The notes beneath the pieces were generated by a model. That model did no database searches. It worked only from the letters and a program-made list of their open reading frames with translations, and was not told where the DNA came from. Of a stretch of 64,000 bases of DNA, positions 530 to 61,633 are shown piece by piece. A program made the position numbers and the translations under genes. The DNA is from Kangiella sp. TOML190 (GTDB lineage Bacteria > Pseudomonadota > Gammaproteobacteria > Enterobacterales > Kangiellaceae): positions 1,674,001 to 1,738,000 of the forward strand of contig NZ_BQYL01000001.1 in assembly GCF_023706045.1 (NCBI RefSeq). The letters run 5' to 3'. How positions within the stretch are numbered: position 1 is the first letter of the stretch; every line of letters begins with the position of its first letter.

Positions 530-1687
530 TTATTTTACTTTGGTATAAACCTCATTGTATTCACCAATCTCAAGACTGTATCCTGCGCCGCCTGAAACCG
601 TAAATCCTAGTAGCTCGGGCTGTCCATTTTCTGGCGTAAAATAGCTATACCAGACCCCCACACCAACGCCAAAGTCTGCATTAGTTTCAACGACTAAACC
701 TTGCGAGTACCCGGTCTCAAAACGGTTCCCCCATATACCTACCGTAATACTTCCATCAATACCTGCAGACACCCCCTTGGTAAAACTATGGGCACCGTAT
801 TTAACTAACTCTTCTGGTAGAATATTCACGGCTAAACCAAACTCAAATTGTGTACCTATACCTAAAGAAGCATCGCCACCAAAACCAATAGAGACTGATA
901 CTTGGCCTGCTTCTCTGGCAGTATCGATTAGATCATTATACTCGTCAAACTCTTGTAAAATCGCTACCGCTTCGGCTAATTGCTTTTTCTTGATTTTTTT
1001 CTTGAGTTCTCGAACCTTTTCTTTAGTGGCTTCATCTTGCTGACTTAAGCGTATTACTAAATTCACAATTCCTGCTAATATTTCTGCGGCTTCATCAGCC
1101 CCTGCAGCATTAGCCGCAAAGGTGGTTATATCAAACGGCTCAGAGCACAGCTTTCTCGATTTTAAGCCGAGCCAATTGCCAAACCGATTAAGTAAGTTGT
1201 TAGGAGGTTGTTTTGCTAAAACCAAGCCTGGGTCACAGTAATGCTCCTTGGGTACTTTGCAGTGACCGCTATCAATCCCCGCAACATGTTGTCGCTTAGT
1301 AGCGGGTGGGCAGGATTTACATTTTCTTTTATGTTTAAACTGACCTGAAGGACAGCCAAATGCATCTTTTTGGAAAGACGCAGCCGTATACTCCTTTTTA
1401 AAAAGTCCTCTTTTTTGACAGGCTTGGGGGTGAGTCATTTTACGACCAAGGCTAGCTCTTTTGTATCCTGACGGACAGGTATAACAGTTGCCACCGGATA
1501 AGTAGCTTTGTTTGCCAGGGCAACCTTTTTCAGGATTACCATGAACCGTGGCATCTATTTTCTTGCAAATTTCTTGTCCATATCCACCTTTGTCGGGGCA
1601 GTATCCCTGCTCAGCAGATAGGCTCTGCGGGCTGTATAAAAAAGTCAATAACAATAATGGCCATATTGGCATTAAGAATATTTTCAC
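530..1687 (-). CDS. Secreted Cys-rich protein of unknown function
   Basis: The gene is not recognised. The 385-residue product starts at GTG behind AAGGAG (7-base spacer) and has a signal peptide of about 24 residues ending ..SLSA. The next 155 residues hold twelve cysteines in short CP/CxxC-type motifs (GNCYTCPSGYK, CKSCPPATK), resembling small EGF- or GCC2/GCC3-like modules. A charged helical stretch follows around residues 215-245 (RELKKKIKKKQLAEAV). The last 125 residues are rich in Gly and alternating hydrophobics (SIGFGGDASLGIGTQFEFGLAV), which suggests beta strands. It could be a surface or periplasmic beta-structured protein with a disulfide-rich head. It stands alone on the minus strand. 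Confidence 0.75.
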   Translation of the reverse strand: MKIFLMPIWPLLLLTFLYSPQSLSAEQGYCPDKGGYGQEICKKIDATVHGNPEKGCPGKQSYLSGGNCYTCPSGYKRASLGRKMTHPQACQKRGLFKKEYTAASFQKDAFGCPSGQFKHKRKCKSCPPATKRQHVAGIDSGHCKVPKEHYCDPGLVLAKQPPNNLLNRFGNWLGLKSRKLCSEPFDITTFAANAAGADEAAEILAGIVNLVIRLSQQDEATKEKVRELKKKIKKKQLAEAVAILQEFDEYNDLIDTAREAGQVSVSIGFGGDASLGIGTQFEFGLAVNILPEELVKYGAHSFTKGVSAGIDGSITVGIWGNRFETGYSQGLVVETNADFGVGVGVWYSYFTPENGQPELLGFTVSGGAGYSLEIGEYNEVYTKVK

Positions 1688-12406: not shown

Positions 12407-12650
12407 CTATGATCAAAATAAATCTATGAAATAATTAGTCCAAACAGGTGTTTTTAAGATTCAATCAAATTAATTGAAAGCTTGATAAAATAAGGGCTGA
12501 AAGCTTGTTTGTAGGGATTAAAAATGGTTTAATTCGCGCCGAGATTGAGATAGCTATAGATTATTGATTTATCATTTCTTTCTTAATGAACTGTAACTTG
12601 TTGATTTTCAATAAGATTACTTAAATAAAACACACACGAACCGTCACATT

Positions 12651-12720
12651 GGTCGGGGTGCAAATCGTAAGATTTGTCGGCTTAATGGGGTTTGTGGAGG
12701 CTTAACCCGAAATTCGGAGA
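12651..12720 (+). promoter_or_regulatory. Structured 5' leader of rpsB (S2-type autoregulatory leader candidate)
   Basis: The last 75 bases before rpsB fold into compact elements: a 6-bp stem CAAATC/GATTTG closed by a GTAA tetraloop (12661-12676), a GGGTT/AACCC pairing (12688-12692 with 12704-12708) whose loop holds GGAGG, and a small CCGA/TCGG hairpin (12707-12717) that covers the start of the ribosome-binding GGAG. The last two compete for the same bases. In gammaproteobacteria the rpsB leader is known to bind S2 and repress rpsB-tsf translation. The rest of the 320-base gap (12407-12650) is AT-rich with no gene; a weak promoter around 12599-12626 is possible. Confidence 0.5.
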
Positions 12721-59441: not shown

Positions 59442-59864
59442 TTACTTGCTATTAACGGCTTTTAAAGGATTATAGCCTTTTTTATCTTTGTGGTTAGAGT
59501 ATTTCTTTTGGTAAGTTTGGTACTGATTTAATATCAATTCAGCTTTTTGCTTAGAGTTAAGCTCGATACCTTTAGCTTTAGCTAAGCCTTCAACCATGGT
59601 AATGGTCTTTGAAAGAATTTCGATATCTACAATTTGTTGTTGGTCTTGTTGACCGTGATTTTCTTCGCTAAGCGGGATCAAAGATAACCGATGCCCCATG
59701 GCTCGTGCGATACCATCGATCTTATGCATGCCGGGATCGGAAGTTCTGCCTTCTAGAATACGATAGATGGTAGATTGGCTGATATGAGTCTTATTTTGGA
59801 GTGAATAATCGGTTTCACCCAAACTCTTCATTAATGCTTTTAGCTGATCTAGAACACTGCTCAT
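59442..59864 (-). CDS. XRE-type HTH transcriptional regulator
   Basis: The 140-residue protein has an N-terminal HTH (ETDYSLQNKTHISQSTIYRILEGRTSD, residues about 17-43) and an acidic-to-basic C-terminal part rich in Gln and Lys (VEGLAKAKGIELNSKQKAEL) with no known ligand domain. Two near-identical palindromes lie 20-60 bases upstream of its start (59884-59923), which fits autoregulation and control of a divergent transcript. No clear Shine-Dalgarno precedes the ATG. It is 17 bases upstream of the rhombosortase gene, likely cotranscribed. Confidence 0.82.
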   Translation of the reverse strand: MSSVLDQLKALMKSLGETDYSLQNKTHISQSTIYRILEGRTSDPGMHKIDGIARAMGHRLSLIPLSEENHGQQDQQQIVDIEILSKTITMVEGLAKAKGIELNSKQKAELILNQYQTYQKKYSNHKDKKGYNPLKAVNSK

Positions 59865-59883: not shown

Positions 59884-59923
59884 AATGCAAATTTGCATTG
59901 AATTTAATGCAAGTTTGCATTAA
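59884..59923. promoter_or_regulatory. Two operator-like palindromes spaced 22 bp
   Basis: AATGCAAATTTGCATT (59884-59899) is a perfect 16-bp palindrome. TTAATGCAAG/TTTGCATTAA (59904-59923) is a 20-bp palindrome with one central mismatch. Their centres are 22 bp apart, two helical turns, so two dimers would sit on the same face. They lie between the XRE gene and the divergent candidate RNA. Confidence 0.75.
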
Positions 59924-59926
59924 TAT
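59898..59926 (+). promoter_or_regulatory. Plus-strand promoter within the operator pair
   Basis: TTGAAT (59898-59903) and TAATAT (59921-59926) are 17 bases apart, each matching four of six consensus positions. The second palindrome fills the spacer and the first touches the -35 box, so a bound regulator should block it. The expected start is near 59933. Confidence 0.45.
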
Positions 59927-59932
59927 CGTACT

Positions 59933-60085
59933 CAACTTCAAGGGAAATTAAAGTAACTGTGACTTAATTCATGTTTTATCACAGTATTTGCAGTAAATAA
60001 AGCATTGATTTTACATTTCCCTTAAACGATTTCCTTCAGCTATATGGTGGGATTTGGGCTAAGTTTAGACTTAGCCCTTTTTTTT
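59933..60085 (+). ncRNA. Candidate small RNA
   Basis: From the predicted start near 59933 to a T8 terminator at 60085 there is no supported gene on the plus strand, only structure. A perfect 9-bp stem AAGGGAAAT/ATTTCCCTT (59940-59948, 60015-60023) encloses a 7-bp hairpin ACTGTGA/TCACAGT (59956-59962, 59979-59985). The terminator hairpin follows. A 9-codon frame (ATG 59971) could be a leader peptide but has no ribosome site. The family is not recognised. Confidence 0.45.
60056..60085 (+). terminator. Strong intrinsic terminator with no upstream plus-strand gene
   Basis: GGGCTAAG (60056-60063) pairs with CTTAGCCC (60070-60077) around TTTAGA, followed by eight T (60078-60085). The T run is on the plus strand, so it does not serve the minus-strand DUF4139 gene that ends at 60113. 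Confidence 0.85.
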
Positions 60086-60112
60086 GCTCATAAGAAAGAA
60101 CTCAAGCTCGGA

Positions 60113-61633
60113 TCACCACGAATACTTGACTTGGTATTGCACCTTAGTCTCGCCATTGGCTGGAACCTTGACTTTAAAATGAATGTGGCGCGAGTCTTGT
60201 TTAGTAAAACTATGGGAATGGTTAACAATTTTCCAGTTCGACCAGCGATACAAGGTTTCTCTGATAACCACTTCTTGGTCCTTCTCTTTATGATTTTTTA
60301 TTGTGATTTCAAAGGTTTCAGACATTTTCTTGTTATTGGTATCAACCGAATAATTGGTCTGTTTACGCTCGCCTTTTATATCGAAAGCATTGCCCATTTT
60401 GATTAATACTTCCTCATCTTTAGGCGTGTGATCGATAATATCTTCACCGATAAATTCTAATGAACCGTCCGAATCACGCTGGTTCACTCGAATCCGTCCT
60501 GCTGGCAAGGGGATCCCCATACCGCTGGCTTTGTCGTTTTTAAAGCGTAAGTACACATTCACATCATCCTGCGAATGGCGACCATAACCTTGACTGGTAT
60601 TTAAGCCTCCATAGCCGTAAAACTGGCTTGATGCGTCAAAAACCAGCTCTTTATTACAATTTATGTCACTTATGGCTGGAAATAGCTCCAATTGCTTGGT
60701 GGAGTTATTGGGTAAATCAGCCGGACGGCCAAGTGTATAGAGGTGATACTCAAAGAAAGACTTCTCTTCAAAGCCTGCGGAGTCCTCCATCATAGCCTCT
60801 GCGCGCATAGCTTTGCGCATTACGTGCGGTGAAGGTGCGGCTTGCGCACGATTAACATCACCGGCAATCAGTTTAAGTTTAGCTTGTTCAAAACTCGCTC
60901 CCGATTGATTGATGATACTAACCCAGCCACTTAAATCGAGCTTACAGTGGTTTTTACCTTTTTCGCTAAAAATAACGTTGTAATCTGACCACCAAGTCAT
61001 GCCTGCGGTTTGATAGCTTAACTCAATATCCTGCTTGCCGGGACTGTCAGAAAACAAGGACCAGACTAAGGTCGGTTTGGTTCTGAGGCCGCCGGGTAGT
61101 TGCGGGAAGCTGATGTTGTGATAATTATTAATGCTGTGAATGCCACCGCTAGAGTCTTTGATCACCAAGCCTCCATCGGCGCTGATCAACTCGCCAGTTT
61201 TTTTATGTATTTGATCACCAATTAATTGTTCGACGGTAATCACTTGTCCTAAATAGCGCTGCAATAATTTTTGCTGACTGACCAAATCAAACTGATAGTT
61301 CTGCTCTAACACTCGCGCATCTTTATCGTCTTGCGAGCGAAATTGAACGGTAGTTGGATCGAGCAAGGCCGCAACGTCAGATACTTCGAGCTGATTGACA
61401 CCACGCGCGATATTGTATTGGCGAGTGGATTTAATCATGGCGTAACCGGGTACATTGTAGCGCCCGCGATGTTGACCAGGCACGGGCCGATAAATGTCCG
61501 GTGAAATAGAGCCTGGTTGGGCGCTGGAATAAATGGTGATGGCTTCTTGTTCTTTGGCCATGGCAACTCCTGTCGAGAAAATGGTTGAACCTAATGCGCT
61601 AGCAACGGCTAAGGAGAGGATTTGTTTTTTCAT
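60113..61633 (-). CDS. Secreted DUF4139 domain protein
   Basis: The 506-residue precursor has a signal peptide (residues 1-26, ending GVAMA). It reads like the DUF4139/DUF4140-type periplasmic proteins: an N-terminal strand set (YNIARGVNQLEVSDVAALLDPTTV in shorter pieces), a middle with TWSLF-like strands (PTLVWSLFSDSPGKQDIELSYQT) and a C-terminal region (ETFEITIKNHKEKDQEVVIRE). The function is unknown; homologues are often annotated only by domain. It stands alone between the XRE region and the alpha/beta hydrolase. Confidence 0.75.
   Translation of the reverse strand: MKKQILSLAVASALGSTIFSTGVAMAKEQEAITIYSSAQPGSISPDIYRPVPGQHRGRYNVPGYAMIKSTRQYNIARGVNQLEVSDVAALLDPTTVQFRSQDDKDARVLEQNYQFDLVSQQKLLQRYLGQVITVEQLIGDQIHKKTGELISADGGLVIKDSSGGIHSINNYHNISFPQLPGGLRTKPTLVWSLFSDSPGKQDIELSYQTAGMTWWSDYNVIFSEKGKNHCKLDLSGWVSIINQSGASFEQAKLKLIAGDVNRAQAAPSPHVMRKAMRAEAMMEDSAGFEEKSFFEYHLYTLGRPADLPNNSTKQLELFPAISDINCNKELVFDASSQFYGYGGLNTSQGYGRHSQDDVNVYLRFKNDKASGMGIPLPAGRIRVNQRDSDGSLEFIGEDIIDHTPKDEEVLIKMGNAFDIKGERKQTNYSVDTNNKKMSETFEITIKNHKEKDQEVVIRETLYRWSNWKIVNHSHSFTKQDSRHIHFKVKVPANGETKVQYQVKYSW

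Follow-up and report, generated by a model that had tools for sequence, protein, structure and literature searches.

The stretch of DNA analyzed here (the window; 64,000 nucleotides of the 2.45-Mb genome of Kangiella sp. TOML190) carries, at positions 59933 to 60085 of its plus strand, what comparison across Kangiella and the predicted fold indicate to be a small RNA (sRNA) gene of about 150 nt. Divergent from it, on the minus strand (59442 to 59864), lies a gene coding for an XRE/Cro-CI-type regulator of 140 aa, in which an HTH_26 domain was recovered at the Pfam cutoff and which weakly resembles phage repressors (best match phrog_3; E, 1e-5). Pfam searches with the flanking genes in the window recovered HHH/ComEA-like and rhomboid domains, and genes that we take, by eye, to be lapB and pyrF also flank the locus. 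No Rfam 15 family reaches its gathering threshold in the sRNA region; the only match in the window that does so is a t44 RNA (RF00127; 76 bits) at 12613 to 12706 on the plus strand.

A first-pass annotation of this DNA had placed a promoter at the right distance upstream of the candidate transcript and described it as bracketed by XRE operators. The promoter itself was borne out as the sigma-70-like TTGAAT-N17-TAATAT (59898 to 59926, plus strand). Each of its hexamers matches the consensus at four of six letters, placing it below the 9/12 threshold of a consensus scan, in which it hence goes unlisted; we call it a promoter because the pattern TTG-N20-TA..AT is conserved in all 19 Kangiella genomes that have the sRNA. 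Transcription would be expected to start near 59933. The operators were found as two palindromes that are copies of a single 16-bp palindrome, but they touch the −35 element and fill the spacer instead of bracketing the promoter: the last two bases of candidate operator 1, AATGCAAATTTGCATT (59884 to 59899), are the first two of the −35 element, and candidate operator 2, AATGCAAGTTTGCATT (59906 to 59921), 22 bp from operator 1, occupies the spacer together with the first −10 base. Because this pair sits at the XRE gene's own promoter, we infer that the XRE protein binds palindromes of this type.

The predicted fold of the 153-nt transcript has a free energy of −39.8 kcal/mol, against a mean of −25.7 (standard deviation, 3.5) for 200 dinucleotide shuffles, none of which folds as well (z, −4.08). 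The perfect 9-bp closing stem that had been reported is present, with its 5′ arm AAGGGAAAT at 59940 to 59948 and its 3′ arm ATTTCCCTT at 60015 to 60023, and so, in the predicted fold of the window, is the 7-bp inner hairpin; the latter is not conserved as such, other folds being predicted in its place in other clades. Between the arms lies an A-rich box, AAATAAAG (59995 to 60002), conserved in all 19 genomes, which is a possible Hfq-type A-rich site if its composition is a guide to its role. The 3′ end is formed by an intrinsic terminator, GGGCTAAGT-TTAG-ACTTAGCCC followed by 8 T (60056 to 60085), whose stem-loop (60056 to 60077) has 9 pairs, 5 of them G-C. As had been noted earlier, this strong plus-strand terminator lacks an upstream gene, no plus-strand open reading frame (ORF) of at least 40 aa ending between the XRE gene and it. 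Terminator-like sites in the 3 kb scanned are at chance level (4 found, 3.4 expected), and we take this one as real because of its conservation and the two-sided changes in its stem described below. The most conserved part of the element, absent from the first-pass annotation, is the core TTTCCTTCAGCTATATGGTGGGATTTGG (60030 to 60057) just before the terminator, which is predicted to be able to fold as a short hairpin with a GCUAUA loop.

Through comparison with related genomes, we found the sRNA element in 19 of 20 Kangiella genomes, as read from the loci; the sole miss, G002, where the covariance model gave no match, is a genome only 55% complete. Of 41 relatives searched by BLAST with a 248-base query, 20 gave matches at an E value of ≤0.001; each of the 20 belongs to the same genus, and the matches in G002 and G008 cover the palindrome region only. 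The covariance model recovered the sRNA in 19 of 40 genomes of the family, all of them Kangiella, with one strong match per genome; four weak extra matches (E, 5e-4 to 9e-4) are without the core, look like bare terminators, and were rejected. Allowing at most three mismatches, the core occurs in 17 of 394 genomes of the order, all of them Kangiella, and was not found outside the genus in that set; G008, also a Kangiella, has five mismatches. The exact 18-mer that begins the core occurs in 17 stretches of a genome contig collection, 13 of which are titled Kangiella or Kangiellaceae. The other four (Rhodospirillales, Saprospiraceae, Lachnospiraceae, and Oscillospiraceae) have a partial core and no terminator. 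The 18-mer is also present in four viral contigs, in surroundings that differ from the sRNA locus (and that two of them share) and, by eye, with no terminator after it; because of low model scores (12 to 23 bits, against 59 to 87 for true copies) and the missing terminator, we attribute these occurrences to chance. No similar DNA was found in plasmid and phage records. The XRE protein has a single marginal match outside the genus among 41 genomes (E, 8e-4; 26% identity). By these sequence searches, the sRNA-regulator pair is confined to one genus in the collections searched.

All 19 copies share the TTG-N20-TA..AT promoter pattern, a TT-TA-CA-A motif, the AAATAAAG box, the core, and the terminator, and the expected transcript length by species is roughly 135 to 205 nt (about 150 in the window). 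Letters 1 to 18 and 23 to 26 of the core are identical in 19/19 genomes, and the remaining letters are retained in 16 to 18; by comparison with these 18 invariant letters, the neighboring XRE proteins are 55 to 64% identical to that of the window. Even in G008, the most divergent copy, a six-pair hairpin is still predicted at the core. That 19 of 20 Kangiella genomes keep the gene together with its promoter, palindromes, core, and terminator supports, with no Rfam match, the original proposal of an undescribed sRNA. Covariation in relatives, which that proposal had named as its check, is found in the terminator, where four of seven pairs show changes on both sides when the stems are anchored at the T run. 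The row for L007 is one pair out of register in this recount, giving one wrong count in each of pairs 2, 4, 6, and 7, and the four two-sided changes hold without it. In alignment A4, pair counting revealed no excess of covariation (481 of 500 shuffles scored at least as high), the reason being that the clade A rows are shifted there by one column.

The closing stem passed the same check in part, being re-formed with changed letters but convincing singly in 10 of the 19 genomes. The arms read AAGGGAAAT/ATTTCCCTT in the window, TTAGTTAAAT/ATTTAACTAG in G016, and CTAGTTCAG/TTGAGCTAG in G013 and G011. Clade B has TTCTGAAATG/CATTTCAGAA or the TATTTCAGAA variant of it, and part of clade C has TACTTTAATC/GATTAAAGTG and the like. 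Cognate arms form duplexes with a mean of −12.5 kcal/mol, whereas the 260 pairs made by exchanging arms between clades average −7.1, and a helix of at least 8 pairs, with G-U allowed, is found in 16 of 19 cognate arm pairs, against 70 of 260 swapped ones. In ten representatives, the observed mean helix was reached in 2 of 20,000 permutations. Taken one at a time, 10 of the 19 cognate duplexes beat 95% of 500 arm shuffles and 9 do not (G018 stands at 0.5). Within clade A, swapped arms also pair well (helices of 4 to 11). In G018, G009, and G010, the longest helix is not the outermost. G004 and G008 carry long inserts, their helices are short (6 and 7), and the stem would have to be rearranged in both. 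On the basis of these comparisons of predicted pairings, the long-range closing stem is a shared feature that drifts in detail and is clearly re-formed in about half of the genomes.

The palindrome is not restricted to this promoter. The pattern AATGCANRYNTGCATT was found at 84 sites in the 20 Kangiella genomes, where its reversed control has 1, and at 11 in the genome of the window, where the control has 0, although the reversed palindrome contains CG steps and is a weak control; from base count alone, our estimate is far less than one site per genome. The eight sites in the genome of the window that read exactly TGCAAATTTGCA fall outside ORFs of at least 90 aa, and at least one other palindrome site (G000:C1:180224) lies inside an ORF start. 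Further intergenic palindromes in this genome (G000:C1:2312, 496351-496389, 842887, 1852556, and 2294514; loci L322 to L326) adjoin unrelated genes, by eye those for a surface-repeat protein, an HD-GYP-like protein, and others. Similar palindromes are seen upstream of a trxB-like gene in G012 and G014 (L024 and L028) and beside an mlaC-like gene in G001 and G002 (L019 and L026), these genes again being named by eye. The XRE protein may therefore control a scattered regulon.

An operator-like site also occurs within 350 nt upstream of the DUF3050 gene in all 12 of the 20 Kangiella genomes that have this gene (Pfam E, 1.1e-81), with no mismatch in 5 and one or two in 7; among 600 mononucleotide-shuffled control stretches, the best had two mismatches, in 3 instances, and none had fewer. 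DUF3050 is described as related to heme-oxygenase-like di-iron enzymes (PMC4520260). The position of the site is near −78 in clade B, but in the seven clade C genomes the best such site is found near −245. In clade B (G003, G006, G012, G014, and G019), a perfect palindrome and two core-complementary stretches occur together at the DUF3050 gene. The first stretch, TATAGCTGAA, lies in the leader just before the ribosome-binding site and is kept while nearby letters vary. The second, CCCACCATAAA, spans codons 14 to 17 and is complementary, with one mismatch, to the other half of the core; it overlaps Ser-His-His codons, and its complementarity may only reflect the protein sequence. In four clade B genomes, duplexes between the start region and the core have predicted energies of −25.9 to −28.6 kcal/mol, surpassing those with 200 of 200 mononucleotide-shuffled cores, and the leader alone gives fractions of 0.0 to 0.05 against shuffled cores. 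The fifth, G012, whose copy of the gene has an in-frame TAG, was left out of the shuffled-core comparison; its start-region duplex is −28.6. In the seven clade C genomes, the pairing is about that of shuffled cores (fractions of 0.045 to 0.48, leader or full region), so that complementarity is strong in only one clade, i.e., five of the 12 genomes having the gene. Among 56 operator-adjacent regions, the three strongest duplexes are those of DUF3050 regions; four regions stand at 0.05 or below, three of them DUF3050, with no general excess. Judged from complementarity and the operator-like site, the DUF3050 mRNA is the best candidate target, a plausible one in one clade, and not the function of the RNA. 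No DUF3050 gene was found in eight of the 20 genomes, among them that of the window and the rest of its clade, and any targets of the core in these genomes must be different ones.

Searches of the 20 Kangiella genomes with complements of the core yielded no genus-wide target. AGCTGAAGG with an ATG after it was counted 83 times, including two hits to the sRNA gene, and the control 69 times. With one mismatch allowed, 116 places matched ATATAGCTGAAGG and 74 matched CCCACCATATAGC, of which 19 and 18, respectively, are the sRNA gene. The corresponding reversed patterns gave 50 and 26; these do not keep dinucleotides, and the excess is not interpreted. Classification covered 92 of the listed nonself ATATAGCTGAAGG places (46 sense in ORFs, 27 antisense, 12 intergenic, and 7 before an ORF start); of the CCCACCATATAGC matches, the loci of some were inspected. 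The strongest site in the genome of the window is a 14-nt perfect core complement (G000:C1:180072-180085, minus strand; L321) just after a TATAAT box and before a putative lipoprotein gene. This leader was the one row at 0.02 or below among 15 clade A operator loci screened; the site is missing from three orthologues, and we rejected it as a target. Separately, a hairpin-rich, conserved gap before a small PspC-like gene (by eye) in clade B contains the core-complementary stretch TAGCTGAAGG(G)AAAG (L167, about 1150-1650, with equivalents in L247, L258, L275, and L286). It has no Rfam match in the three loci scanned and may be another RNA gene. In L167, a subthreshold Phe_leader match (1039-1162, minus strand; 46.5 bits, gathering threshold 55) lies upstream of a pheA-like gene (by eye).

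The rigidity of the core invites an explanation other than base pairing, namely, that it is a protein-binding site by which the RNA titrates or scaffolds an RNA-binding protein, either one with CsrA-like binding of GGA or a Kangiella-specific one. An sRNA seed is usually 7 to 12 nt long, and a block of 18 invariant letters (18/18) is longer and more rigid than this; the core also contains GUGGGAU, and the lack of a target found conserved across the genus would be expected if pairing were not its role. Sponges of the CsrB/RsmZ type carry several GGA motifs in hairpin loops. The Kangiella sRNA resembles these in having a GGA in a conserved hairpin, but its conserved part has a single one, in the stem and not retained in G008, and we rejected assignment to this type. 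More precisely, the fold prediction puts the GGGA in the hairpin stem; two genomes have GGAA instead, and G008 also departs from it. Protein binding would moreover leave the DUF3050 complementarity of clade B without a place, and we consider it unlikely.

Still less probable is that the locus is the remnant of a prophage or plasmid immunity region, with a CI/Cro-like repressor and a divergent antisense RNA, kept by the genus. The likeness of the regulator to phage repressors noted above and the two palindromes between divergent genes are reminiscent of such a region, but its flanking genes are ordinary chromosomal ones, it is present as a single copy in 19 of 20 genomes, and such palindromes are dispersed along the chromosome. 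Plasmid and phage records contain no similar DNA, and the four viral contigs have the 18-mer in a different context and without the terminator. This possibility concerns the origin of the locus and is compatible with a present-day role as an sRNA gene.

A structured 5′ region followed by a terminator also resembles a leader or riboswitch-like attenuator, whose terminator would govern whether transcription continues into the gene that follows. We compared downstream neighbors, considering ORFs over 130 aa or matching proteins of the window. A plus-strand ORF does follow the sRNA in the five clade B genomes, 237 to 465 nt downstream, and in G008, at 366. In clades A and C, however, the first ORF listed downstream runs in the opposite direction: clade A has the sRNA-XRE pair beside rhomboid and comEA-like genes, with DUF4139 or another minus-strand ORF downstream, and clade C likewise has minus-strand ORFs there, whereas clade B loci long enough to show it have an extra ORF between the pair and the rhomboid gene. 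Thus, no downstream gene in the same orientation is conserved, whereas the XRE gene is adjacent and divergent in 19/19 genomes having the sRNA. Because the XRE neighbor is constant and the downstream neighbor changes between clades, we view the element as an independent sRNA gene; the synteny largely refutes a leader, which we rejected as very improbable. A short mRNA for a small protein is the least credible alternative and was rejected from the ORF comparison, for although an ATG is found in the core in 19/19 genomes (in the window, a 120-aa plus-strand ORF at 60044 to 60406 starts in the core, crosses the terminator, and is antisense to the DUF4139 gene), in nearly all genomes its frame stays open into the terminator, the letters before it, UUUCCUUC, do not make a ribosome-binding site, third codon positions in the core are no more variable than first and second ones, and no other ORF is common to the 19.

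The reading that we favor, and regard as likely, is that of an XRE-repressed, probably Hfq-assisted base-pairing sRNA, encoded by an independent gene of the genus Kangiella and laid out like OxyR-OxyS. To the extent that sequence conservation can tell, it is an independent, genus-wide RNA gene, with a conserved promoter, core, and terminator and a drifting stem, linked to the XRE gene and its palindromes. An own promoter and a terminator with a U tail, recognized from sequence and comparison, are as in Hfq-dependent trans-acting sRNAs, and the genome of the window codes for Hfq (100.2 bits; E, 1.2e-28). In the mechanism that we propose, the divergent XRE-type repressor would sit on the two palindromes over the shared promoter region and shut off both its own gene and the sRNA. 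Its release would yield the transcript of about 150 nt, with a 5′ domain predicted to be closed by the long-range stem and a 3′ end formed by the terminator, whose long U tail resembles those bound by Hfq and would presumably let Hfq associate with the RNA. The invariant core UUUCCUUCAGCUAUAUGGUGGGAUUUGG, predicted as a weak hairpin between the 5′ domain and the terminator, would then pair with target mRNAs around their ribosome-binding sites. The DUF3050 gene, coding for a predicted di-iron, heme-oxygenase-like enzyme, has the same candidate operator in its promoter in one clade and would thus be under the control of both repressor and sRNA. One can conceive, tentatively, of a two-layer switch, with the XRE repressor at the DUF3050 promoter and each half of the sRNA core gripping a separate site on the mRNA of that gene, the leader site UAUAGCUGAA pairing with UUCAGCUAUA and the coding site AUCCCACCAUA with UAUGGUGGGAU; we consider this possible, if rather doubtful. 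If it holds, such bipartite, multitarget use would account for the unusual rigidity of the core.

The same arrangement is known from enterobacteria, where the OxyR-OxyS, GcvA-GcvB, and SgrR-SgrS pairs are presented as sRNAs transcribed divergently from the genes of their own transcription factors (PMC4423775). The Kangiella sRNA shares with OxyS, GcvB, and SgrS the divergent orientation to an adjacent regulator gene (in 19/19 genomes with the sRNA), likely operators over its promoter, an intrinsic terminator, and a highly conserved short core. It differs in its regulator, a phage-repressor-like XRE protein that is presumably a repressor, whereas those of OxyS, GcvB, and SgrS are LysR- or SgrR-type factors, and also in that it has no Rfam match to these RNAs and is found only in Kangiella. 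Likenesses to STnc480 (32.2 bits; gathering threshold, 72; minus strand) and SorY (27.3 bits; gathering threshold, 111) are limited to the terminator-like hairpin region, and it is a member of neither family.

A literature search for Kangiella with "small RNA" returned nothing on Kangiella sRNAs, the match concerning mosquito-associated CRISPR systems; by title, none of the matches listed for Kangiella with "transcriptome" is about Kangiella sRNAs; and no match combined sRNA, divergently, XRE family, Hfq, and seed region. The design of the sRNA is a known one; this RNA and its regulator appear new, and they may constitute the first well-delimited sRNA family of Kangiella. The family combines a 28-letter core that varies less than the neighboring protein with a candidate regulator, an operator of defined sequence, and a target open to testing, and, as an sRNA-regulator pair confined to one genus in the collections searched, it is a useful case for asking how such pairs arise.
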